From the NCBI GenBank assembly GCA_937924905.1, contig CALDUK010000003.1, positions 1-64,000 on the forward strand: DNA of 64,000 nucleotides, written 5' to 3'. The first letter of the stretch is position 1. Each line of letters begins with the position of its first letter. Positions 1-12,343 of the stretch are shown here, one piece after another. The notes under the pieces are model-generated. The model made no database searches. It saw nothing but the letters and a program-made list of their open reading frames with translations, and was not told the origin of the DNA. The translations under genes and the position numbers were made by a program. The stretch comes from an uncultured Paracoccaceae bacterium (GTDB taxonomy: Bacteria > Pseudomonadota > Alphaproteobacteria > Rhodobacterales > Rhodobacteraceae).

Positions 1-760
1 TTCGCTTGGGCCGTTGCCGTCTTCGTCAACCTGAGACACGGTGACCGTGCCGCTTGGCTGCACCTCGGTCGAGGTGACCGAGTAGTTGCCCGAACCGTCC
101 GCCATGGTCGTGATTTCTTCGCCGGACGGCATAACAACCGTCACCATGGCGTTGGGAAGGCCAACACCAGAGACGTCAAGCAAGCCATCGTCGCGGTCTT
201 CGCCGACCACAACGGTGGGGGCTGGCACGTCGACAGGCGCTTCGTATGTGCCCGAGCTGGATTCGCTTGGGCCGTTGCCGTCTTCGTCAACCTGAGACAC
301 GGTGACCGTGCCGCTTGGCTGCACCTCGGTCGAGGTGACCGAGTAGTTGCCCGAAACCTCCGCCATGGTCGTGATTTCTTCGCCCGACGGCATAATCACG
401 GTGATGGTGGCGTTGGGGAGGCCAACACCAGAGACATCCAGCAAGCCGTCATCGCGGTCTTCGCCGACCACAACAGTGGGGGCTGGCACGTCGACAGGCG
501 CTTCGTATGTGCCCGAGCTGGATTCGCTTGGGCCGTTGCCGTCTTCGTCAACCTGAGACGCGGTGACCGTGCCGCTTGGCTGCACTTCGGTCGAGGTGAC
601 CGAATAGGCGCCTGTCGCATCGGCCACAGCCGAGACTTCTTCGCCCGATGGCATTGTGACGGTCACGGTGGCGTTGGGAAGACCGACGCCGGAGACATCC
701 AGCAATCCGTCATCGCGTTCTGCGCCGATTGTAATGGAAGGTGCAGGGATGCTTGTGCTG
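1..760. repeat. Tandem 261-bp coding repeats in adhesin gene A
   Basis: The period is exactly 261 bp (87 codons). The block starting ttcgcttggg recurs at 1, 262 and 523. Copies 1-261 and 262-522 differ at only about 15 positions by eye. The third copy, ending near 760, is more diverged. The array probably continues beyond the left edge. Such near-identical in-frame repeats can expand and contract by recombination and are also prone to assembly collapse. Confidence 0.9.
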
Positions 761-1146
761 GAGCTTGCGTCGTCACCGCCGCCGCCACCTGCGAGGGCCG
801 CTGAGCCCAGGATGCTGAGAATGCCTGCCAGTGGGCCAACACCGCCGCCGTCGAAGGCGAGAGCGCCCGCTGCGGGGTCGTCTTCGAAATCAAGCGCCTT
901 CTTGAGATCGGAGGCGAAGTAGCCTTCGAGACGGATCACCTGGCCATTTTCCAGTGTCAGGATAAGGGTATCGCCCGAGCGCTGAAGCCCGGCAACATCA
1001 TCCTGAGAAAAGCCTAATTCGACCACACGTATATCGTTGGTCACATTGTACGCCGCGCTGTCCGCAGAGGCGACGTCCAAAATTTCGTTCTGTTCAAAGT
1101 CGATATCTGGATTATTTTCCAGAATGAGATCACTTAGGGTTGTCAT
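1..1146 (-). CDS. Type I secreted adhesin-like protein (paralogue A), 5' part; runs off the left edge
   Basis: The frame is open for 382 codons from ATG at 1146 to the window edge, so the C-terminus is unseen. The first ~80 residues match the prefix domain found in BapA-type biofilm proteins (block SGDTLILTLENGQVIRLEGY, about residues 57-76). A Gly/Ala-rich hydrophobic stretch follows (about 91-125), then Ig-like repeats of 87 residues, each opening near PAPTVVVG and closing near DEDGNGPSESSSGTYEAP. There is no Sec signal peptide, as expected for a type I secretion substrate. The next gene, at 1760-3901, is a paralogue with a near-parallel N-terminus. A four-residue PAAG at 91-94 resembles a LapG-type cleavage site, but no lapG or lapD is in view. 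A perfect CRP-type palindrome lies about 145 bp upstream of the start. Function as an adhesin is inferred from family and context. Confidence 0.8.
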   Translation of the reverse strand, partial: MTTLSDLILENNPDIDFEQNEILDVASADSAAYNVTNDIRVVELGFSQDDVAGLQRSGDTLILTLENGQVIRLEGYFASDLKKALDFEDDPAAGALAFDGGGVGPLAGILSILGSAALAGGGGGDDASSSTSIPAPSITIGAERDDGLLDVSGVGLPNATVTVTMPSGEEVSAVADATGAYSVTSTEVQPSGTVTASQVDEDGNGPSESSSGTYEAPVDVPAPTVVVGEDRDDGLLDVSGVGLPNATITVIMPSGEEITTMAEVSGNYSVTSTEVQPSGTVTVSQVDEDGNGPSESSSGTYEAPVDVPAPTVVVGEDRDDGLLDVSGVGLPNAMVTVVMPSGEEITTMADGSGNYSVTSTEVQPSGTVTVSQVDEDGNGPSE

Positions 1147-1709
1147 ACTGTCCTCATTGGCCGATAGGCGGCTGCTTGATTTCTACTCATCACGTTAATT
1201 TCTGCCGAAGCCCTTTGGTTTTACCCATGAAAATGACAGATTTTCCGTCCGAAAAAGGGCAGTAACATGTTCGCCGTCCGCGATGTGATGGATATCACAC
1301 CTAATATGTGACGCAGACGTGTTCCGCCGTTTTGCGGGGTGTCGATTTGAGAGGAAATGTCGGCCTGCCGGGCCGATTTTCTGGATTGGGCCGCTGGATG
1401 TTTGACCATGGCTTTAGGGGATAAAATGCTGTTTTTATTTATTTTTTCTACCGCGCCTGTGCGTATTCGGAATTTTGCCCGCGCAGATCTTTGCCGCTGC
1501 CATTCTTCGCCCTGCGGGTCGGCTTTTGGTGGGCCCCAAGGCCCTGTTTTGCGGGCTATTCATTTACGATTGTGGACAGATTGTGGCGGTGCGTTGGTTG
1601 ATTTGTGTCTTTTCACGGTTTTGACAGGCGATTATTCGCCCGTTTCCTGCCTTAGCGATTAACAATAATCGCCATCTAAGGAGGTGTTAAAACATGGATT
1701 TTAACGCAA
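1147..1709. other. Intergenic region between the two adhesin genes
   Basis: The half near 1146 is the leader and promoter of adhesin A and contains the palindrome at 1284-1299. A block around 1225-1262 (minus strand gaaaatctgtcattttc) is also present, slightly altered, upstream of adhesin B near 3981-4018. The half near 1709 is AT-richer and holds no convincing gene. A 101-codon plus-strand frame at 1357-1662 has no ribosome-binding site or recognisable content. Confidence 0.6.
1284..1299. promoter_or_regulatory. CRP/FNR-family palindrome upstream of adhesin A
   Basis: The sequence TGTGATGGATATCACA is a perfect TGTGA-N6-TCACA inverted repeat. Its centre is 145 bp upstream of the ATG at 1146. 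The minus strand then reads GGCGAACA followed by a weak -10-like TGTTACT, an arrangement shared with the adhesin B promoter. The cognate regulator is probably the CRP-family protein encoded at 6586-7389. Confidence 0.75.
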
Positions 1710-1759: not shown

Positions 1760-3901
1760 TTAGATGACGACGTTGACGTCCTGTTCGATCAGCAAAGTGG
1801 CCGAACCGGACGTGTAGACATCGACAACCTCGCCCTGGAAGGCGCGTTCACCGGTCTTGGCGAACCCATCGGCATTCACCTGATCATTGCCATTGCCGAA
1901 GACGTACAGCTGATCCGAGGCTGATGTATCCAGCACATCCTGCGCCGTGATCGTCACCGACTGGGAGTTTGTGCCTTCAATGTCGATATATTCGAGGTTC
2001 GAGACGTTATCGAACTGCCCGAGATCAAAATTGAGACCTGCTGTGTTTTCCAGGATCAGATAGCCATCCGAATTGCTGGCGCCATCTGCGAGTGCTGCAA
2101 GGTCCGCCGCATCGAGCGCAACATCGGCGGTGTCGGATGTACCGTCGTCATTGCTGTCGGTGTCGCGGGCTGCGATTTCGCCATCTGCGTCGGCGTCAGA
2201 CGTGCCTTCGAAGATGTCCCAGATTTTGTCGCCATCGCTATCGAAGTCGCGCGCGTCAACGATACCGTCTTCGTCGGTATCCAGTGGCCCGTCGACTTCG
2301 ACGCCCAGCGTGCTGACGTTAAAGCTCCAGGTCATGGTGCCGCCGTTGGGATTGGTGATGTAGAGCGACGCCTGTTCAACCTGTTGATCGAACACATGGG
2401 TCACCGAGTGGTTGTTGGCACTGCCTGAGACATTGAACAACGCATCCGAAGTTGTGCTGTCATGCGCCAGAATGTGGGACAACGTGCCCAATACAGATTC
2501 GTCCGCAGTTGGGCTGTTGGGGTCAACATTTGTGAACATTCCGATGCCGTCTGGCGCATTTGGGTCCAAGGCAATCGTCGCGACCGTGCTGGTTTCCGTC
2601 CATTCGCCCGGCTCGGACCAGATATAGGTGTCGCGCACATCGCTGAAGGCCGACAGGCTGTCAACGTCATTCAGCGAGATTGTATCGAAGCTGAACGGCG
2701 TTGGCGAATTCGACGTATCGAAAACCAGTTCGATGAACGTGCTGTCGCTGGTGCTGTTTGATGCACCGATTGTACCATTGCTGGTGTTGAAGCCCGGCGC
2801 GTTTGTTTCCGTTGAATTGGCGCCGTAGAAGATGTCCATCGAAAACAACCCGTCTTCGGTCGACAGGCGCATGCCATCCGGGTTCCCCGGAATTTCTTCG
2901 ATCACGCTGAACGCGCGGGTGGCCAGACCAGTTTCATCCGCATCCGCGATGCCGTCGTTGTCGTCATCGTTGTCGGTTGCGTCTGCCGTGCCATCACCAT
3001 CGGTGTCGATCATGATGTTCCGGGCTGCTGTGTCGCCCACATTGCCGACCGTGTCGGTCTGCGTGGCGCGCACTTCGGCGCCTTCGGCCAGTGGCGATGC
3101 TGGAACGACGGACCAGTTGCCGTCTGCGTCTACGGTTGCGTTGCCAATCAGGTTGTTGTCGGCATCTGTGACGCGAACCGTCGCGCCGGGTTCACCTGTG
3201 CCGGCGATAACCGTGTCCACACCGGTGACCAATTCGTTGATACCTGGTTCGGCAGGTGGGGTCACGTCGACTTCGTAGTCAGCCGAGTTTGAACCGCTGG
3301 GACCATTGCCTTCGGCATCGGTCTGAACCGCCGAGACCGGGCCATCCGGCTGTACGGTTGTCGAGGTAACAGCGTAATCACCCATCGCATCTGCCATGAC
3401 GGTGAGTTCTTCGCCGTTTGGCATGGTCACAGTGACGCTTGCGTTCGGGCGGCCGCGACCGGACACCGACACAAGGCCGTCTGCGCGCGCGGCGCCAATG
3501 ATCACCGAAGGGGCCGGAATGCCACCGTCGTCACCGCCGCCAACGGCAAGCGCCGCCAAGCCAAGCGCACCCACGCCAGCCAACTGGCCAACGCCCGAAA
3601 TGCCACCGGCGCCCAGGTCGGCAAAGCCGAGACCTTCGTCAAAGTCGAGAAACGCCTTGCGCGCGTCCGAGAAATATCCATCGAGACGGATGACCTGACC
3701 GTTTTCAAGTGTGATGATCAGCGTATCGCCTGAACGCTTAAGGCCGGCCACATCTTCGCTGTCAAAGCCAAGTTGCACGACGCGCGTGCTGTCGGCGACA
3801 TTGTATGTCGCGCTTTCAGCCGATGAGATTTCCATAACCTCGGACTGTTCGATGGACGCGTCTGGATTGCTTTCCAGAAGGAGTTCGTTAAGTGTTGTCA
3901 T
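1760..3901 (-). CDS. Type I secreted adhesin-like protein (paralogue B), complete
   Basis: The product is 713 residues with no Sec signal. The BapA-prefix-like N-terminus (about 1-80, SGDTLIITLENGQVIRLDGY) is followed by a hydrophobic Gly/Ala stretch (about 95-122) and Ig-like modules (about 128-215 and 216-297). Aspartate-rich thrombospondin type 3/EF-like calcium repeats (about 299-325, DTDGDGTADATDNDDDNDGI) come next. A ~210-residue unrecognised domain precedes a second Asp-rich calcium segment. The C-terminal ~110 residues (NLEYIDIEGTNSQSVTITAQ onward, ending in a hydrophobic tail) are typical of type I secretion substrates. The N-terminal 80 residues align closely with paralogue A, so the two probably arose by duplication. 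The ATG follows GAGGAAAG. The exporter genes at 8866-12208 and the OMF at 7574 are the likely secretion route. Low-calcium unfolding in the cell and calcium folding outside is family knowledge, not shown here. Confidence 0.85.
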   Translation of the reverse strand: MTTLNELLLESNPDASIEQSEVMEISSAESATYNVADSTRVVQLGFDSEDVAGLKRSGDTLIITLENGQVIRLDGYFSDARKAFLDFDEGLGFADLGAGGISGVGQLAGVGALGLAALAVGGGDDGGIPAPSVIIGAARADGLVSVSGRGRPNASVTVTMPNGEELTVMADAMGDYAVTSTTVQPDGPVSAVQTDAEGNGPSGSNSADYEVDVTPPAEPGINELVTGVDTVIAGTGEPGATVRVTDADNNLIGNATVDADGNWSVVPASPLAEGAEVRATQTDTVGNVGDTAARNIMIDTDGDGTADATDNDDDNDGIADADETGLATRAFSVIEEIPGNPDGMRLSTEDGLFSMDIFYGANSTETNAPGFNTSNGTIGASNSTSDSTFIELVFDTSNSPTPFSFDTISLNDVDSLSAFSDVRDTYIWSEPGEWTETSTVATIALDPNAPDGIGMFTNVDPNSPTADESVLGTLSHILAHDSTTSDALFNVSGSANNHSVTHVFDQQVEQASLYITNPNGGTMTWSFNVSTLGVEVDGPLDTDEDGIVDARDFDSDGDKIWDIFEGTSDADADGEIAARDTDSNDDGTSDTADVALDAADLAALADGASNSDGYLILENTAGLNFDLGQFDNVSNLEYIDIEGTNSQSVTITAQDVLDTSASDQLYVFGNGNDQVNADGFAKTGERAFQGEVVDVYTSGSATLLIEQDVNVVI

Positions 3902-4040: not shown

Positions 4041-4056
4041 TGTGAATAGAGTCACA
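4041..4056. promoter_or_regulatory. CRP/FNR-family palindrome upstream of adhesin B
   Basis: The sequence TGTGAATAGAGTCACA is a perfect TGTGA-N6-TCACA repeat centred 147 bp upstream of the ATG at 3901. Spacing to the gene and the following GGCGAACA block match those of adhesin A within 1-3 bp, which argues that the arrangement is conserved for a reason. Confidence 0.75.
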
Positions 4057-4401: not shown

Positions 4402-6375
4402 TTAGCCCTTGTCGCGACCTTCGATTGAGTAAAGCACGGTTGGCCCGACACCCCGGAGGCGCGCACGACCTTGGCGTTCGGTTTTGTACAGGCTGCCGAT
4501 GCGGTCGAGCACGGCTTCGGTCACTGTAATCTTGCCGGGTTTGCCCGCCTGTTCCAGTCGCGAAGCGATGTTCACGGTGCTGCCCCAGAGATCGTAGATG
4601 AACCGGTGCTGGCCGACGACTCCAGCGACGATGGGGCCGCTGTGAAGCCCGATCCGGATTTGAATGTTCTCACCCCGCGCGATGGCCATTTGTTTCGTTT
4701 CAAACAAAAGATCAAGCGCCGCGTCGACGGCAACCTCGCAATGGTCGGGCCGGGCATTTGGCGAGCCCGCGACGAACATATAGCAATCGCCGATGGTTTT
4801 GATCTTTTCCAGATCATAGCCTTCGATCACATTGTCGAACCGTGAAAACAGATCGCGCAAAAGCTCCATCGAGGCTGAGGGTTCGTGTTCCATCGAGTAT
4901 TCGGTGAAACCGACCACATCGGCAAAGACGACGCTGGCATCCGAGAATTGATCGACGATCTGGTCTTCGCCTTCGTTGATGCGTCTGGCGATGGCTTTGG
5001 GCAGAATGGTTTCAAGAAGCTTGTTCTTGTTTTCCACCGCCTCGATCATTTGATCGTGCTTTTCCTGAATGCGGTGGGCGGATTTTTCCAGTTCGTAGAT
5101 CACCGAGTTGTAAAACAGCCCGATCTGGCCAACTTCGGTGAACGGGGATTGTGGGGCGCGCAAGGACAGGTCGCGTTCGCGGGCCTGGCGCTGCATGACT
5201 TCGAACAGTTCGTTCAAATCGGTGTTGGCGCCGTGTTCGCCGACATTCAGGCCGATCTGTTCGATATGTTGCGACACCCGAAGCGGGAAGACCGTGTCGA
5301 GCAGCTTGAGCAGCACAAACGGCACAGCAAACCCATAGGCGACAAGGGCCACCATACCTGTGATTTGCGGGATAAATCCGACATCGCTGAAGATGGCGAC
5401 GGCAAGAAGCCCCCATAGGCCGCAAGCGAAATGTACTGGCACCGCGCCGACCGCATCGTCGATCCGAAAGCGTTCAAGAAGGATATCGACCCCATAGGTC
5501 AACACCCCGCCAATCCCGCCAATCAGAATAGCCGCGTGCGGTTCGACCACGTCGCAAGCTGCGGTGATGGACACCAGACCGCCAAGGCCGCCATTCATTG
5601 AATAAAACACTTTGGGCTGGCCGGTCACAAGCCAGCTTGCGCCCTGGGCCGTCACAATGGCGGCCGCCCCGGCCATTAGCGTGTTGACCAGAATTTGGGG
5701 GACTTCATCGGAAAAGGCCAGCGCGCTGCCACCGTTGAAGCCGAACCAGCCGAACCACAGAAGAAGCACGCCCAGCATGGTCATTGGCAGGTTCGAGCCA
5801 TTGAACCGGCGCGCGCTGCCATCGTTCAGAAACCGCCCATCGCGGGGCCCGATAATCAGAATTGCCGCCAGGGCGATACCGCCGCCGACGCCGTGGACAA
5901 CACCCGAGCCTGCGAAATCGTGGAAGCCCAACTGGCCAAGCCAGCCCGCCGCCGCGCCGGTTTCATCGACGGCCCAGGCCCAGTGGCCGAAGACCGGATA
6001 AATGATCAGCGCTGTCATGCAGGTGATGATCAGATAGGCCGCAAAGCTGCATCGTTCTGCCACAGCACCTGCAAGGATGGTTGCCGCCGTGCCGCAAAAC
6101 ATGGCTTGAAAGACAAAGGTCACTTTTTCGGTCTGCGTTGCGGGTTGATAGCCCAGACTGCCGATCCAGCCGAAGTTCGAGCTGCCGAACATCAGCGAGT
6201 AGCCAACCAGCCAGAAGAGAAGAAGTGCGATTGAGATATCGCAAAGGTTTTTAATTGCGACCGAGATGTTGTTTTTGCTGCGCGTCATGCCGGCTTCGAT
6301 GCACATGAAGCCTGCCTGCATGGTGAAGATGAGCGCGGAGCACATCAAAACCCATAATTGATCTATCTGGGACAA
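4402..6375 (-). CDS. Ammonium transporter domain fused to class III adenylate cyclase
   Basis: From TTG at 6375 (AGGGG seven bases upstream) the product is 657 residues; the frame stays open to a TTG at 6435. Residues ~5-365 are a complete Amt/MEP/Rh domain. They include the DFAG...VVH block with His161, the second pore histidine His315 (VPVH), and WFGFNGGS with Phe213 and Ser217. A ~90-residue linker, partly coiled-coil, leads to a cyclase domain (~470-650). It has both metal aspartates (Asp486 in FADVVGF, Asp530 in KTIGD), the ATP-selecting Lys526 and Asp595, and Asn602/Arg606 of VNIASR, so all active-site residues are present in one chain. Function inferred: cAMP synthesis controlled by ammonium passage or binding. 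The promoter has a near-perfect CRP-type site centred about 34 bp from a TATACC -10, as in class II activation. Amt-histidine-kinase fusions are known; I do not recall a characterised Amt-cyclase. Confidence 0.9.
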   Translation of the reverse strand: MSQIDQLWVLMCSALIFTMQAGFMCIEAGMTRSKNNISVAIKNLCDISIALLLFWLVGYSLMFGSSNFGWIGSLGYQPATQTEKVTFVFQAMFCGTAATILAGAVAERCSFAAYLIITCMTALIIYPVFGHWAWAVDETGAAAGWLGQLGFHDFAGSGVVHGVGGGIALAAILIIGPRDGRFLNDGSARRFNGSNLPMTMLGVLLLWFGWFGFNGGSALAFSDEVPQILVNTLMAGAAAIVTAQGASWLVTGQPKVFYSMNGGLGGLVSITAACDVVEPHAAILIGGIGGVLTYGVDILLERFRIDDAVGAVPVHFACGLWGLLAVAIFSDVGFIPQITGMVALVAYGFAVPFVLLKLLDTVFPLRVSQHIEQIGLNVGEHGANTDLNELFEVMQRQARERDLSLRAPQSPFTEVGQIGLFYNSVIYELEKSAHRIQEKHDQMIEAVENKNKLLETILPKAIARRINEGEDQIVDQFSDASVVFADVVGFTEYSMEHEPSASMELLRDLFSRFDNVIEGYDLEKIKTIGDCYMFVAGSPNARPDHCEVAVDAALDLLFETKQMAIARGENIQIRIGLHSGPIVAGVVGQHRFIYDLWGSTVNIASRLEQAGKPGKITVTEAVLDRIGSLYKTERQGRARLRGVGPTVLYSIEGRDKG

Positions 6376-6455: not shown

Positions 6456-6471
6456 TATGATCCGGATCACA
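6456..6471. promoter_or_regulatory. CRP-family palindrome upstream of the Amt-cyclase gene
   Basis: The sequence TATGATCCGGATCACA matches TGTGA-N6-TCACA with one mismatch and has a symmetrical spacer (tccgga). On the minus strand, TATACC at 6432-6427 is centred about 34 bp downstream. That would place the site near -43, the class II activator position. It supports translation starting at 6375 and suggests feedback of the regulator on its own cyclase. Confidence 0.6.
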
Positions 6472-6585: not shown

Positions 6586-7389
6586 TTATAGCAATTGGGG
6601 GCTGGTGCGCGGGTTTTCTTCGGCGCGTTCGATCAACGCTTCCAGGTCGGGCACGACCAGCCGCGCGCCCTGGTTGACGACAAGGCCTTCGCGTTCGAAC
6701 GCCTTGTATCGTTTGTTGACCGCTTCGCGGGAAACGCCAAGCATGCGCGCCAGTTCATTTTGCGAAAACTTGCGATGGAAAGTGGCGCGGTTGTCTTCGA
6801 CGCTGGCGAAGTCGATCGAGAGTTCATAGATCAATTTGGCCAATCGAATATCGAGGCTTGCAAAGGCAAGGCTGCTGATTGTGCCAAGGTTGCGGCGCAT
6901 CATTTCGCAAAGCGAATAGATCAGGTGCTTCGCCAGTGCATGGTCGCGGTTGACCGCGTCTGCCATCGCGTCGGCTGGCAGGAACAGGCATTCAGTGTCG
7001 CGCGTGGTGGTTGCATTTGCTGTGCGTTCCAGCCCGTCGAGCATCGCGACCTCGCCAAATGCGTCGCCGCTGCTCATGTAGGCCAGCGTCATTTCGCGGC
7101 CGTCTTTGGCTTCTAGCCAGATGCGGACTTCGCCCGACAGCACGATGCGCAGCCCGTCGGGTTCGTCCCCGACGGAAAAGACCACCTGCCCTTTCGGCGT
7201 GTGTTCAACATAGCTGGCTGCCGCGATGGGATAGAGGCTTGTGTCATCCGCGTCTGCGAACATGAAACAGCTTCTGATTTTCGCAACGCGTTCCGCGACG
7301 AAGCTTTGAGAAGGTGCTTTGGACTGTGCTGTTTGAATATCACGCATTCTTTGCTTACCGAGACACCAGCCAAAAACCGGCTGCGACAT
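6586..7389 (-). CDS. CRP-family transcriptional regulator, likely cAMP-responsive
   Basis: The product has 267 residues: a cyclic-nucleotide-binding domain (about 40-165) and a winged HTH (about 205-250). The phosphate-binding cassette FGEVAMLDGLERTA keeps Glu113 and Arg122 and has Thr123 where E. coli CRP has Ser83, so cNMP binding is plausible. The recognition helix SREAVNKR carries Arg221, Glu222 and Lys226, matching the Arg-Glu-x3-Arg/Lys pattern that reads TGTGA. FNR-type iron-sulfur cysteines are absent. The start is taken at ATG 7389; ATG 7347 is also possible and neither has an ideal ribosome-binding site. The gene is divergent from the TolC-type gene with a perfect palindrome between them, so autoregulation is likely. 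Neighbouring genes encode an adenylate cyclase and the secretion system that I infer it controls. Confidence 0.88.
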   Translation of the reverse strand: MSQPVFGWCLGKQRMRDIQTAQSKAPSQSFVAERVAKIRSCFMFADADDTSLYPIAAASYVEHTPKGQVVFSVGDEPDGLRIVLSGEVRIWLEAKDGREMTLAYMSSGDAFGEVAMLDGLERTANATTTRDTECLFLPADAMADAVNRDHALAKHLIYSLCEMMRRNLGTISSLAFASLDIRLAKLIYELSIDFASVEDNRATFHRKFSQNELARMLGVSREAVNKRYKAFEREGLVVNQGARLVVPDLEALIERAEENPRTSPQLL

Positions 7390-7480: not shown

Positions 7481-7496
7481 TGTGAATGGGGTCACA
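7481..7496. promoter_or_regulatory. CRP-family palindrome between the regulator and the TolC-type gene
   Basis: The sequence TGTGAATGGGGTCACA is a perfect TGTGA-N6-TCACA repeat. It is centred 85 bp upstream of the TolC-type ATG at 7574 and about 100 bp from the divergent regulator start. Possible plus-strand -10 elements are TATAAA at 7501 and TATCCT at 7536. The first would leave the site in a repressing position and the second in a class I activating position. Confidence 0.75.
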
Positions 7497-7573
7497 GGTC
7501 TATAAATTGGTTTGCCAATGTGCCGTACAAATTTGTATCCTAACAAAAAATAATAAGCGAATTGAGGCAAAAA

Positions 7574-8869
7574 ATGATCCGGGCAATTCACGGGGGTAGC
7601 ACCCCGTTTTTCTGCGTGTTCTGTTTTCTTGCGGCCTGTTCTTCCGAGACCGGGCCCGCATTTTCAGTGCCCGAACGGGCGGCGCAGCAGATATCAACCG
7701 AGCTTGAAGATGGCGGATTGCAGGTCACGCCGGATGGTGGGTTTTTGAACGCCAACCCCACCTATCGCGCCGTTGCCACCAGCATATTGACCACCAATCC
7801 GGGCGGAGACGCCAAACTGATCGAGGCCGCGCGCTTGCAGTCGCAAGCTCTGGATCAAACGCTTTTACCGCAATTCCGGCCAACCGCGTCCGTCAATCAG
7901 GACGGCGATCCGGTGGCCCGGCTGGGGGTGACGCAGATTGTCTTTTCAAACGGGCAGTTTCAGGCCGAAAAAGGTGCTTTGCGCGCGGGCGAGATTGAAG
8001 CGATTGCCACGTATCTTGTGTCTTCCAATCAGCGTGTGGCCGACGGAATTACAGCCTATCTTGAGGTCGATTTCTTCAGCCGGCTGACCGAAACGGCCCG
8101 CGATCTGGAAATGCGGTTTCAAACATTGGTCGATCAGGCCGAACGCCGGGTCTCGGGCGGTGTGGGCGACGAGACCGAGATTGCCACGTTCCGGCTGAAA
8201 CTGTTGGAAGCGCAGTCTGATATTCAAACCAATCGCGCCAATCGCGCACTGGCCGAAGCGCGGTTGCGCGATCTGACCGCGGGGCTGGATTTGCCCGCGA
8301 CACCGCCTGCGATGCAAACGGTGCCGCCGCGTGCAGAACCGCCCGAGGTCGTGCTGTTGCTGGCCGAGGTCGCAGCGGCGGAAAGTGATCTGGCGCTGGA
8401 ACGCGCACGGCGGCGCCCTGCGCTGTCGTTGGAAGCGTTCAGCGAAACCAACCTGTCCACCGGGACAACAGATGACGGTCTGTCGCTGGGCGTCGGGGTT
8501 TCGATGCCTTTGGGACTGAAGAACGGACTGGAAATAGACGCGGCCGAGGCACGGTTGACCGCGCTGGAGGCGGAACTGGCCACGACCCGCGCCGATCTTG
8601 CCCGCGAGGTGGCGCAACTGCGCGCCCGGATCGACAGCGAGACAGCGCGGCTTGCGGTTTTGACCCGTCTTGTAACCGCTGCGCGAGAACGGACGGACGA
8701 CTTCGAAGCGCAGTTTCTAAGCGGAACCGTGTCTTTGGAAGAAGCCGTCAGCGTTCTTGATACCTATCGTCGAAGCCAGGACCAGTTGACCGAAGCGCGC
8801 AACGAAGTGTTGAAAGCACAGTTGGACATCGCCCGGATATTTGGCCAGCTGATGCCGGGGACCGGTTAA
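7574..8869 (+). CDS. TolC-family outer-membrane channel lipoprotein of the type I secretion system
   Basis: The ATG at 7574 (preceded by GAGG) gives 431 residues with a lipoprotein signal. The hydrophobic FFCVFCFLAAC places the acylated Cys at about residue 18. An upstream TTG at 7562 is also in frame but less likely. The body is rich in long amphipathic helices with two related halves (ETARDLEMRFQTLVDQAERR and TARADLAREVAQLRARIDSE), as in outer-membrane factors. I infer that it forms the exit duct for the adhesins. It converges on the HlyD-type gene with a 4-bp overlap of stop codons. A CRP-type palindrome lies in its promoter. Lipidated OMFs are common, so the lipid anchor is not itself odd. 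Confidence 0.85.
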   Translation: MIRAIHGGSTPFFCVFCFLAACSSETGPAFSVPERAAQQISTELEDGGLQVTPDGGFLNANPTYRAVATSILTTNPGGDAKLIEAARLQSQALDQTLLPQFRPTASVNQDGDPVARLGVTQIVFSNGQFQAEKGALRAGEIEAIATYLVSSNQRVADGITAYLEVDFFSRLTETARDLEMRFQTLVDQAERRVSGGVGDETEIATFRLKLLEAQSDIQTNRANRALAEARLRDLTAGLDLPATPPAMQTVPPRAEPPEVVLLLAEVAAAESDLALERARRRPALSLEAFSETNLSTGTTDDGLSLGVGVSMPLGLKNGLEIDAAEARLTALEAELATTRADLAREVAQLRARIDSETARLAVLTRLVTAARERTDDFEAQFLSGTVSLEEAVSVLDTYRRSQDQLTEARNEVLKAQLDIARIFGQLMPGTG

Positions 8870-10035
8870 GGTTCCCGGAATGCTTCGCTGGTCTTGAAGA
8901 GCGGCTTCAGCAGGTACTGCATCACCGTCTTGTCGCCCACGTTCAATTCGGCTTCGGCCAGCATGCCCGGACGAATTTCGATCGACTTGCCGTTCTTTTC
9001 CAGTGCGGCCGCTTCGACCGCAATCAGAACCTTGTAATACGGGTCGCGGTCGCGGGCATTTTCGTCTTCGAATGTGTCCGCGCTGATATGCACGACTTCG
9101 CCGGGGAATGAGCCGTAGATTGTGTAATCATAGGCGGTCAGTTTCACGGTCGCACGCATGTTTGGTGTGACATAGGCGATGTCTTTGGGGCTGATCCGAG
9201 CTTCGACCCGCAGGACGTCATCCAGAGGTGTGAGTTCAAGGATTGCATCACCCGGTGAAACAACGCCGCCGATGGTGGTAATCAGGATTTTATTCACGAT
9301 ACCACGGACCGGCGCATTCAGATTGGTGCGCACCAGTTGGTCGCGCCGGACTTCGAGGCTGGCTTCCAACTGCTTTAGTTCGGTCAATGCGGCCGAGTAT
9401 TCTTCGGACCGGGACAGAACGTAATCTGTGGCATAGGCGGCCTGTTCAGCTTCGATTTCGGACAGCTTTTTCTGAGCCGCGACATAGTCGAGACGCGGCA
9501 CAAGGTTTTGCTGTGACATGTCGCGCAGCATGTCGACCTCTTCGCGTTGCAGCGACACGGTCGAGGCAAAGGCCGTCGTTGTGCTTTGATATTCGGCGCG
9601 GCGCGCCTTGAAGAGCTGTTCTTCAGACACAGCGATGCTTGGATCGAAGCTGCGGATCTTGCCGGGAAGCGCCAGCGCTTCGGCAAATTCCAGTTCCCGC
9701 TCCAGGCGGTGCAGTTTGGCTTTGAGCGCGGTGACCTGACCTTCGACTTCGTTGAAGGCACCTTCGAATTTGGTGTCGTCAAGCCGCGCCAGCACTTCGC
9801 CGCCCGGAATGATCTGACCTTCCGAGACCAGAATTTCCGACAGAATGCCGCCTTCCAGGCTTTGGATAACCTGTGTGCGGCTGGACGGAACGACTTTACC
9901 CGGCCCGCGCACGACTTCGTCGAGAACAGCAAAGTAGGACCAGACAATCGTTGCGATCAGGGTTGCGGCGATCAGCCAGATCATAATCTGGCTGCGGCCG
10001 GGATCGGGGGCTTCAGTCTGCACTTGCGTTGACAT
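8866..10035 (-). CDS. HlyD-family membrane fusion protein of the type I secretion system
   Basis: This is the periplasmic adaptor linking the ABC exporter to the outer-membrane channel. The ATG at 10035 follows GGGAAGA and gives 389 residues. One membrane segment lies near residues 20-40 (IMIWLIAATLIATIVWSYFA). The barrel/lipoyl halves flank a long coiled coil (about 90-230, with ALKAKLHRLERELEFAEAL). The C-terminal barrel ends in RPGMLAEAELNVGDKTVMQY. The start overlaps the end of the ABC exporter gene by 23 bp, so the two are co-translated. The frame also opens further upstream, but that would lie inside the exporter gene and has no better ribosome-binding site. Assignment to the family is secure; the substrates are inferred from location. 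Confidence 0.92.
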   Translation of the reverse strand: MSTQVQTEAPDPGRSQIMIWLIAATLIATIVWSYFAVLDEVVRGPGKVVPSSRTQVIQSLEGGILSEILVSEGQIIPGGEVLARLDDTKFEGAFNEVEGQVTALKAKLHRLERELEFAEALALPGKIRSFDPSIAVSEEQLFKARRAEYQSTTTAFASTVSLQREEVDMLRDMSQQNLVPRLDYVAAQKKLSEIEAEQAAYATDYVLSRSEEYSAALTELKQLEASLEVRRDQLVRTNLNAPVRGIVNKILITTIGGVVSPGDAILELTPLDDVLRVEARISPKDIAYVTPNMRATVKLTAYDYTIYGSFPGEVVHISADTFEDENARDRDPYYKVLIAVEAAALEKNGKSIEIRPGMLAEAELNVGDKTVMQYLLKPLFKTSEAFREP

Positions 10036-12208
10036 CGTTCTTCCCTTTTCCACCGTTGGATTGCAGTTTGTTGACCACATCGTCGCGTTTGCCATGCATC
10101 GAGATCGAACCATTGGTCAGGACCGCGACATTGTCGACGACGCTGAGCATTCCCATACGGTGGGTGGTCAGGATGCAGGTTTTGTTTTGCAGCCATTTTT
10201 TGAGTTTCGAGATCAGTTCCATCTCGGCGTTTTGGTCGAGGCTGGCTGTGGGTTCGTCCAAAAGCACGATCTTGGGGTTTTGCAGGTAGATGCGCGCCAG
10301 ACCGACCGCGTGACGTTGCCCCACTGACAGACCTTCGCCACCGTCTGCGATGACAAGATCAAGGCCAAGAGGATGCGCACGTATTGCGCGGTCGAGGCCC
10401 GAAAACGTCACCGCTTCGACGATTTGGTCTTCGGTATAGTCTGTATGCCCAAGCGTCAGGTTTTCGCGCAGCGTGCCGGTGAACAGGCTGACTTCCTGTG
10501 GCAGGTAGCCAATGTTCCGACGCAAATCGACCGGGTCGATCTGGCGGATATCCAGCCCGCCAATTGTGACGCTGCCTGCCGAAAAGCTGTAGATGCCGCT
10601 TAGGATCTTGAGCAGGGTCGATTTGCCCGACCCGTTCATCCCAAGAAGGCAAAGCGTTTCATTTTCTTCGATCTTGAGCGCACCGATCTTAAGCGATGCG
10701 GGGCTTTCAGGGTCATAGGTGAACTCGGTATTATTCAGGACGATATCGCCCGTCAGCGTGCCTTTGCGGGCAAACTGACGGTCAAGTCCGCGGTCCTGAT
10801 CGGCGTCGGCAATCTGTTCAAGGCCGACCAGTGCTGTTTTGACCTGTTCCCAGCGCGCAATGGTGCCGGACAATTGCGTGACAGGCGCAATCGAGCGCGA
10901 CGAAAGAATGCTGACGGCGATGATGGCACCTACCGTAAATTCGCCCGCGAAGACCATATAGACACCCGCTACGACGGCAAAGACATAGGCCGCGTGCTGA
11001 ACGCCGACGGACCAGAATTGCAGGGTCGATGCCAGCAGACGCTGTTGCGATGTTTTATAGGCGTTGAGTGCGACGATTTCTTCCCAGCGGCGCTGAAAGA
11101 GAGCTTCGCCAGAATGCGATTTGATCGTTTCCTGGTTGTAGCACACCTCGGTCAGCAATTTGCTGGCTGCCGATGTGCCGCCCTGCATTTCTTCGGACAG
11201 GCGCATCATCTTTTTGCGCATCAGCAAGCTGGGCAAGATGATCATCGTCATGCCGGCGACAATCACCCAGACGACATTGCCTGCTATTCCGTAAATCAGA
11301 AGCAGGAAGATGAAGACAAAGGGGATGTCGGCCACCGAACCGATGGAGGCGGCGGTGAAAAATTCACGCACCGAGCCAAATTCACGCATCAGATAGGCAA
11401 GCGCCCCCGGGCTGCTGGGGCGTTTCGAGAGGCTCATGCCCATGAGTTTCGAGAACAGGAAGGACGTTGCCGACACTTCGATCCGGCGTCCGGCCACATC
11501 CATCAGATGAGCACGGGAAATGCGCAGAAGCGCTTCGCAGACAATAGCGATGCCGGCGCCCGCCACCAGCACCCAAAGCGTGGCTTCGGATTGGTTCGGG
11601 ATAACCCGGTCATAAACCTGCAACGCAAAGAGCGCGATGGCGACGGCCAGAATGTTGGCGATGAACGTGCCAAGAAGGATGTCGCGCACAAGGCCTTTCT
11701 GGCCGGTGAATCCGCCCCAGAACCAATGTTGGGGTTTCTTTGTGCCGACGTGGCGGCGTTGAATGTCATCGACCTGGACCGTGGCTGACAGATAGCGGCC
11801 GGTGAAGTCCTTGTCGAAATCCTTGACCGGAATGGCGCGTTTGCCGGTTTCGGCCTTTGGGTCTGCGATATAGGCAAAATCCTTGTCGCGTTCGATCAGA
11901 ACGGAATATCCACCGTTGCTCATCAAGACGCAGCACGGCAATTGCTTGGACTTCAGCTTGCGCGATGTTTCGAACCGGCCCGAAAGCCCAATACGATCGA
12001 GCGCCCGGATCGCAAGCGCGTCGGGCAGATCATTTTCGACAATCGGTAAGCCAAGCAAGAAATCCTCGCGGCTGACCTGTTTGCCGAAGGTTCGGCAATA
12101 AATAAGAAGCGCATCGACAATAGATGTCGGTGCGGTCGACGACCTTTCAAAAACCACTTCAGCTTTCGACACGCCTTGCCCCAAAGTGACAACAGGTGAC
12201 TTTTTCAT
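10013..12208 (-). CDS. Type I secretion ABC transporter, LapB/HlyB type
   Basis: This inner-membrane exporter should drive secretion of the adjacent adhesins by ATP hydrolysis. The ATG at 12208 (MKKSPVVTLG) gives 731 residues; the frame extends 36 codons further up but without a good ribosome-binding site. Residues ~25-140 form a C39-like domain without the catalytic cysteine, typical of LapB exporters that recognise C-terminal signals rather than cleave leaders. Six membrane helices follow (about 165-430). The nucleotide-binding domain has Walker A GMNGSGKST and Walker B IVLLDEPTASLD. The ABC signature reads LSVGQ instead of LSGGQ, a mild deviation. A CRP-type site lies about 127 bp upstream. 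The gene is followed by and overlaps the HlyD-type gene. Confidence 0.92.
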   Translation of the reverse strand: MKKSPVVTLGQGVSKAEVVFERSSTAPTSIVDALLIYCRTFGKQVSREDFLLGLPIVENDLPDALAIRALDRIGLSGRFETSRKLKSKQLPCCVLMSNGGYSVLIERDKDFAYIADPKAETGKRAIPVKDFDKDFTGRYLSATVQVDDIQRRHVGTKKPQHWFWGGFTGQKGLVRDILLGTFIANILAVAIALFALQVYDRVIPNQSEATLWVLVAGAGIAIVCEALLRISRAHLMDVAGRRIEVSATSFLFSKLMGMSLSKRPSSPGALAYLMREFGSVREFFTAASIGSVADIPFVFIFLLLIYGIAGNVVWVIVAGMTMIILPSLLMRKKMMRLSEEMQGGTSAASKLLTEVCYNQETIKSHSGEALFQRRWEEIVALNAYKTSQQRLLASTLQFWSVGVQHAAYVFAVVAGVYMVFAGEFTVGAIIAVSILSSRSIAPVTQLSGTIARWEQVKTALVGLEQIADADQDRGLDRQFARKGTLTGDIVLNNTEFTYDPESPASLKIGALKIEENETLCLLGMNGSGKSTLLKILSGIYSFSAGSVTIGGLDIRQIDPVDLRRNIGYLPQEVSLFTGTLRENLTLGHTDYTEDQIVEAVTFSGLDRAIRAHPLGLDLVIADGGEGLSVGQRHAVGLARIYLQNPKIVLLDEPTASLDQNAEMELISKLKKWLQNKTCILTTHRMGMLSVVDNVAVLTNGSISMHGKRDDVVNKLQSNGGKGKNDVNASAD

Positions 12209-12327
12209 TTTTTGCCCCGTCCAACAGTCTCGGATTGGTTTCGATTGAGAAACAATCCTGTGCTCGCCAGAGTTTTGGTGGTGCTTTGGGGCGAGATTGT
12301 TGGCGAAATGAGGCAAAATTGTGGAAA

Positions 12328-12343
12328 TGTGTTCAAGATCACA
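12328..12343. promoter_or_regulatory. CRP-family palindrome upstream of the secretion ABC gene
   Basis: The sequence TGTGTTCAAGATCACA matches TGTGA-N6-TCACA with one mismatch. It is centred about 127 bp upstream of ATG 12208 and sits 35 bp past the end of mch. It is the fifth such site in 12 kb, each before a secretion, adhesin or signalling gene. Confidence 0.6.

Follow-up and report, generated by a model that had tools for sequence, protein, structure and literature searches.

A predicted ammonium receptor with a class III adenylate cyclase output, encoded beside a CRP-type regulator and CRP boxes in a Rhodobacteraceae genome

The window analysed here, a stretch of 64,000 nucleotides at the start of contig CALDUK010000003.1 of an uncultured, marine-type Paracoccaceae bacterium (GTDB family Rhodobacteraceae; assembly GCA_937924905.1), carries a gene, hereafter amt-AC, in which an ammonium transporter (Amt) domain is joined to a class III adenylate cyclase domain by a linker of ~90 residues. 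A gene for a CRP-type regulator lies upstream of it on the same strand, 210 bp away, and adhesin-like and type I secretion genes flank the pair:

4402..6375, minus strand: amt-AC gene, 657 aa, a single open frame from a TTG start at 6375 to a stop at 4402
5224..6357, minus strand: Amt receptor domain, residues 7–384 (signature Q20, E27, N43, D46, T99; pore H161/H315)
5005..5280, minus strand: HAMP-like linker, residues ~366–457 (GLN..EH motif; helix 386–400, connector 401–413, helix 414–457)
4420..4950, minus strand: class III adenylate cyclase domain, residues 476–652 (D486, D530 metal; K526, D595 ATP; N602, R606)
6586..7389, minus strand: CRP-type regulator, cNMP-binding and HTH_Crp_2 domains, nearest solved relatives cAMP-binding CRPs; candidate reader of a cAMP signal
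1..1146, minus strand: second adhesin-like protein with a BapA prefix, truncated at the contig start; predicted CRP target
1760..3901, minus strand: BapA-prefix Ig-repeat adhesin-like protein; predicted CRP target
7562..8869, plus strand: TolC-like outer membrane protein; predicted CRP target
8866..10113, minus strand: HlyD-type I secretion adaptor
10013..12316, minus strand: type I secretion ABC transporter; predicted CRP target

Pfam assigned Ammonium_transp to residues 7–384 of amt-AC (E = 1.8e-107) and Guanylate_cyc (PF00211) to residues 476–652 (E = 5e-52), both far over the cut-off and both on the one 657-aa frame, which bears out the Amt-cyclase fusion proposed in the original prediction. 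The TTG at 6375 aligned with the start codons of the amt-AC homologues. Because six homologues with 61–63% identity span the whole length of the protein, an assembly or frameshift artefact is excluded as its origin, and the fusion is both real and maintained. The key residues named beforehand for the two halves (His161, His315, Asp486, Lys526, Asp530, Asp595, Asn602 and Arg606) were found at the positions given, and all eight are invariant across seven full-length homologues. The original prediction had mentioned neither the minus-strand orientation nor the linker.

The six full-length relatives, recovered in a scan of 84,980 species genomes, are all from Rhodobacteraceae: two named strains (Yoonia sediminilitoris and Marivita geojedonensis) and MAGs named Roseobacter, Marivita, Silicimonas and Rhodobacteraceae LH_M48. 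The full-length fusion is rare. Among 296 sampled genomes of the family and 385 of the class, it was present in only two, the window genome and a relative of the same genus (G185), and the other long Amts in the two samples were MCP, HK or GGDEF-EAL fusions. No full-length Amt-AC was found in the viral_contigs and plasmid collections, which yielded only Amts or other fusions.

Sequence comparison places the Amt half of amt-AC in the receptor branch represented by Ks-Amt5 and Sd-Amt1, and not with the assimilatory transporters. In a 78-row Amt tree, the seven Amt-AC proteins grouped as a single clade (support 100) nested among the fused receptor-type Amts, with the Amt-SpoIIE proteins of SAR11 as its sister group (support 97). 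Besides amt-AC, the window genome encodes two unfused Amts, of which one belongs to a glnK operon on contig C16; both were placed outside the fused receptor-type Amts. At least two unfused rows (L006 and L007) fell within the receptor part of the tree, and a strict split of all fused from unfused Amts was not rejected (AU test, p = 0.14), nor is it shown by the tree. An alignment-based AF2 model of amt-AC (mean pLDDT 90) gave Sd-Amt1 ON/OFF as its best structural matches (44–45% identity, TMt 0.91–0.92), followed by Ks-Amt5; Sd-Amt1 (PDB 8qj3/8qj4) is the closest solved relative.

The in-membrane NH4+ site described for Ks-Amt5 comprises Q24, E31, N47, D50, T51, T109 and T112 (PMC5764959), and these positions map onto Q20, E27, N43, D46, I47, T99 and A102 of amt-AC. 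The five residues corresponding to Ks-Amt5 Q24, E31, N47, D50 and T109 are thus all present, while A102 differs from the S found in nearly all others and from T112 of Ks-Amt5. Across the alignment (61 fused and 17 unfused Amts in the residue counts), Q20 and D46 occur in 61/61 fused Amts and T99 in 60/61, and only 3/17 unfused Amts carry them; E27 and N43 are common to most plain Amts too. At the same time, the Amt fold with its selectivity filter is present and the transport residues are all kept (Phe gate, Trp134, Ser217 and the His pair). It was this pore pair, His161 and His315, that the original prediction had stressed for sensing, an emphasis that does not survive the comparison, since the same pair is present in 78/78 Amts, including Ks-Amt5, which rules it out as evidence for sensing. 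As Gln20, Asp46 and Thr99 are near-universal in fused Amts and found in few unfused ones, and the histidines are found in all, the informative feature of the Amt half is this receptor signature and not the pore. An assimilatory AmtB/GlnK pair was likewise rejected: no glnK was seen next to amt-AC, whose C-terminus consists of linker and cyclase and is not of AmtB type, and glnK lies instead beside the plain amt on contig C16.

Between the two halves, receptor Amts of every output share a common linker motif (R-V-[ST]..E..GLN..EH.A.T...LF.VM..QA...DLS.R.P..PFTE.GQI...YN.V...LE). Twelve of 33 receptor-Amt linkers matched the Pfam HAMP family (PF00672, best E = 0.001) and 15/33 matched the HAMP region of DgcN/YfiN. 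The amt-AC linker itself aligned with this region (DgcN/YfiN 176–237, E = 7.2e-6); searched alone against Pfam, it gave no match, and its hhalign comparison with the few HAMPs of its own genome was weak (probability 9%), too weak to count alone. The AF2 model predicts a helix (386–400), a connector (401–413) and a second helix (414–457), as in a HAMP domain that continues into a coiled coil. We label the linker HAMP-like.

The cyclase half combines on one chain the two metal-binding aspartates (Asp486 and Asp530), the adenine-contacting pair (Lys526 and Asp595) and the transition-state pair (Asn602 and Arg606), which by sequence is the catalytic set of homodimeric class III adenylate cyclases. 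Its nearest solved single-domain relatives are the mycobacterial cyclases; Rv1625c/Cya (PDB 4p2m, 5o5k, 7yzk) has the same homodimeric-type residue set on a six-helix anchor, where amt-AC has an Amt. In agreement with what had been proposed, Lys526/Asp595 predict ATP as the substrate and both halves look intact; the catalytic set is invariant in the seven homologues. In the window assembly, rated 93.7% complete, the amt-AC cyclase is the only PF00211 domain, and a search for a class I cyclase (PF01295) gave no match. PF00211 is also single in Yoonia and LH_M48, and there are 16 copies in the Roseobacter MAG. The amt-AC protein is probably the main cAMP source of the cell.

Elsewhere, the same Amt and linker are combined with kinase, GGDEF, SpoIIE, MCP or PAS-cyclase outputs, and because of this reuse we regard amt-AC as a known receptor chassis that carries a new output. 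The closest comparison is with Sd-Amt1 of Shewanella denitrificans (PDB 8qj3, 8qj4, 8qpf; Pflueger et al. 2024, Sci Adv, cited in PMC12245846), named 'Receptor Sd-Amt1' in the PDB, a receptor-type Amt that shares with amt-AC the core fold, the Q/E/N/D/T residues and the linker motif PLRVS..E..GLN.GE. The identity is ~44% and confined to the Amt part, and the output of amt-AC is a class III adenylate cyclase, where Sd-Amt1 has a diguanylate cyclase. The Sd-Amt1 authors reportedly describe Amt, HAMP and diguanylate cyclase in this receptor, with the HAMPs pairing on the trimeric Amt. Ks-Amt5 of 'Candidatus Kuenenia stuttgartiensis' (PDB 6eu6; PMC5764959) is likewise a trimeric Amt receptor with an in-membrane NH4+ site, the same five key residues and a fused cytoplasmic output; unlike amt-AC, it has a histidine kinase as output and no typical HAMP, and T51 and T112 in place of I47 and A102. 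The fit between a trimeric Amt and a dimeric cyclase, raised in the original prediction as a puzzle, is not new, having already been posed by these two receptors. The same prediction had set a cAMP output apart from the known Amt-histidine kinase fusions; such a kinase output is indeed known and a cAMP output fits the neighbourhood of CRP and boxes, but GGDEF, SpoIIE, MCP and PAS-cyclase outputs exist as well.

Cyclase outputs have appeared on this chassis more than once. Proteins of several Oscillatoriales cyanobacteria (L098–L104, L107) also join Amt and linker to a C-terminal PF00211 cyclase with full catalytic residues, but differ from amt-AC in having two or more PAS domains in between. 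A single origin of all Amt-cyclase fusions was rejected (AU test, p = 4.8e-5 against one clade of the Amt parts), and the Oscillatoriales and Rhodobacteraceae pairings therefore arose separately. No description of an Amt-adenylate cyclase fusion was found in the literature searched, which did not include the 2024 Sd-Amt1 paper. Receptors made of Amt plus enzyme are already known from Ks-Amt5 and Sd-Amt1, and it is the complete local cAMP circuit predicted here that adds interest.

The adjoining CRP gene and the boxes, which lie outside the coordinates of the original prediction, are the most informative part of the locus. The window genome has only five cNMP_binding genes, of which the regulator at 6586–7389 is the strongest; among its nearest solved relatives are Mtb CRP and C. 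glutamicum GlxR, both with structures containing cAMP. Its phosphate cassette, FGEVAMLDGLERTANA, resembles that of Mtb CRP, FGELSIFDPGPRTSSA, with the FGE...RT pattern present, and its recognition helix reads SREAVNK against SRETVNK in Mtb CRP, with the SRE typical of CRP. It is thus, by sequence, most similar to cAMP-binding CRPs and would be of the cAMP type. No CRP lies beside the other six fusions, and no close relative of this one was found in 60 related genomes, which rules out a CRP conserved with the fusion; for the same reasons, the CRP branch may be peculiar to the window genome.

A different kind of cNMP-binding protein accompanies the homologues. In 4/6 of them, a gene for a protein with predicted transmembrane helices and a cNMP-binding domain, different from the CRP, lies ≤0.5 kb from the fusion. 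The neighbours in Yoonia and Silicimonas are POPDC-like at sub-threshold scores (E ~1e-4); the others are in Marivita geojedonensis (two) and LH_M48. The membrane cNMP-binding proteins beside Amt-AC are:

L086: 4885–5577
L088: 8116–8859 and 8883–9542
L089: 5299–5883
L090: 5056–5796

Two of these neighbours resemble animal Popeye (POPDC) proteins, and the classical phosphate-cassette Arg is absent in the Popeye-like ones. Related genomes hold 0–16 cNMP-binding genes each, mostly 5–9, and a cNMP neighbour at ≥5/7 loci has P ~4e-11 at a density of ~6 per 4 Mb, a value that assumes independent loci, which they are not. Among the other Amt loci scanned, only two had a cNMP neighbour (the plain amt of the window genome and L078). 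That both the kind of cNMP protein and its position vary points to a functional link formed repeatedly, and not to a single arrangement passed on by descent. In Yoonia sediminilitoris, the Popeye-like gene also adjoins a SulP-like transporter with a cNMP-binding domain (L086 2297–4513).

Matches to the textbook CRP consensus TGTGA-N6-TCACA, unfitted to these data, were found in the window as follows:

1284..1299: perfect CRP box with its centre 145 bp upstream of the truncated adhesin gene at the window edge
4041..4056: perfect CRP box with its centre 147 bp upstream of adhesin gene 1760–3901
7481..7496: perfect CRP box, between crp (minus) and the TolC-like gene (plus)
6456..6471: CRP box with one mismatch and its centre 88 bp upstream of the start of amt-AC
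12328..12343: CRP box with one mismatch, a short way upstream of the gene for the type I secretion ABC transporter

The three perfect boxes compare with 0.03 expected in the window, a count reached in 0/100 shuffles. The whole 2.98 Mb assembly contains seven (a reversed control pattern gave 0), and 3/7 fall within 6.2 kb around amt-AC (P ~3e-7). Three of the seven precede genes for BapA-type adhesins (BapA_N) at distances of 145–153 bp, one of these being the fourth perfect box, on contig C1, 153 bp upstream of a third BapA_N protein. The remaining three comprise an intergenic site, a site within a coding frame and a site 45 bp upstream of a gene for an acetyltransferase. The two adhesin promoters in the window are paralogous, and their boxes are therefore not independent; nonetheless, the spacer differs at most of its six bases, with all ten box bases kept. 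The count at one mismatch is weak alone (reached by 6/100 shuffles), and at two mismatches there was no excess (20 against 22.6 expected), so only sites with 0–1 mismatches were used; it is the perfect sites, and where they lie, that carry the case for CRP boxes. The acetyltransferase (L193 2987–3790, contig C9; PF13444) is of the ornithine-lipid or N-acyl amino acid synthase type. At the loci of amt-AC orthologues, no box was found except one in a Marivita MAG (L110 4364–4379), a perfect, intergenic site ~1.6 kb upstream of the Amt-AC gene.

A direct precedent for such regulation comes from Shewanella putrefaciens, where the promoter of bpfA is bound and activated by cAMP-CRP; bpfA encodes an adhesin and is the first gene of an operon encoding its type I secretion system (PMC8938473). 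The likeness lies in cAMP-CRP acting on a large adhesin gene with type I secretion, an action that on the side of the window is predicted. The bpfA system differs in that its cAMP source is not an ammonium receptor, whereas in the window the adhesin genes have those for CRP and cyclase as neighbours.

The sequence shows how the protein is built, which residues are conserved, where it falls in the tree, that it holds the sole recognisable cyclase, the type of the CRP, and the boxes with their positions; NH4+ gating, cAMP production and binding of CRP to DNA we infer. It seems reasonably likely to us that amt-AC is a receptor of the Ks-Amt5/Sd-Amt1 type with a class III cyclase output, through which NH4+ would act by way of cAMP and the neighbouring CRP on attachment genes. 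External NH4+ would enter the Amt vestibule and, instead of or besides passing the pore, bind the in-membrane site formed by Gln20, Glu27, Asn43, Asp46 and Thr99. The resulting movement would be passed through the HAMP-like linker and coiled coil, so that two cyclase domains pair as an active homodimer and make cAMP. The partners could come from one Amt trimer, leaving one cyclase idle, or from neighbouring trimers, leaving none idle. The cAMP would then load the CRP encoded just upstream of amt-AC, and CRP-cAMP may bind the TGTGA-N6-TCACA boxes that precede amt-AC, crp/tolC, the type I secretion ABC gene and the genes of at least three BapA-type adhesins, tying attachment to ammonium. More tentatively, and with slightly less than even confidence, we propose a self-contained circuit from ammonium to cAMP, with cAMP serving as a dedicated signal of nitrogen availability: the only recognisable cyclase would be an ammonium receptor, the adjoining CRP would drive adhesins and secretion, and across the family Popeye-like membrane cAMP effectors would replace CRP.

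Other readings of the same locus were weighed. Membrane anchors with no known ligand are common among class III cyclases, and the amt-AC cyclase could be essentially constitutive or answer another cue (ATP/Mg, bicarbonate or redox), with the Amt mainly an anchor or scaffold. We hold this to be quite improbable, given that the Amt pore, the receptor site and the linker motif are all conserved in seven homologues at 61–63% identity and that Amt plus linker is reused with many signalling outputs, which would be needless for a mere anchor. The Amt might also still transport, with pore flux rather than occupancy of the receptor site driving the cyclase, as proposed for signalling from yeast Mep2 to PKA. 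Such a transceptor would agree with the retained Phe gate, Trp134, Ser217 and His pair, and fungal ammonium transceptors signalling to the PKA pathway have been described (PMC5890159); yet Ks-Amt5 keeps the same transport residues and is reported to lack efficient NH4+ translocation (PMC5764959). With the receptor signature and receptor-clade position of amt-AC, and two other, unfused Amts in the genome, one of them in the glnK operon, we judge a transceptor unlikely, although not negligible.

Downstream of the receptor, amt-AC could make cAMP while the boxes serve another regulator or signal, the real effectors being Popeye-like membrane cNMP-binding proteins. The arrangement at four of the six homologues, where such a gene and no CRP adjoins the fusion, and the lack of conservation of CRP with the fusion, speak for this. 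Nevertheless, none of the five cNMP_binding genes of the window genome is Popeye-like in appearance, the CRP at 6586–7389 is the strongest of them, and the boxes cluster around crp and amt-AC; for this genome, we regard the proposal as improbable compared with a route through the neighbouring CRP.

Most discussion of bacterial cAMP treats it as a signal for carbon or energy, and we know of few direct sensors of external ammonium. If amt-AC is indeed an ammonium-to-cAMP receptor, the role of cAMP and the sensing of ammonium would both become testable with one protein and one deletion, in a genome where no other class I or III cyclase is recognisable and the predicted CRP targets are few. The trimeric receptor module would gain a second cyclase chemistry, which would allow the question of threefold receptor and twofold enzyme to be compared across outputs, and bacterial Popeye-like proteins would be linked to a defined cAMP source.

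Several further variants of the receptor module were seen. In SAR11 (Pelagibacteraceae) and an uncultured alphaproteobacterium, a receptor-type Amt and HAMP-like linker are followed by a SpoIIE-type phosphatase (L109, L119, L143, L144, L152, L161 and similar loci; checked by Pfam on L109 and by motif on the others). Cyanobacterial receptor-type Amts (L108, L114–L117, L147, L150, L151) carry the linker and a second HAMP-like stretch at the end, without a recognised output domain. In the window genome itself, the plain amt of the glnK-amt operon on contig C16 is convergent with a gene for a cNMP-binding and EAL protein (L178 5844–7013), which is reminiscent of Bd1971 of Bdellovibrio and hints at a link from cAMP to c-di-GMP.
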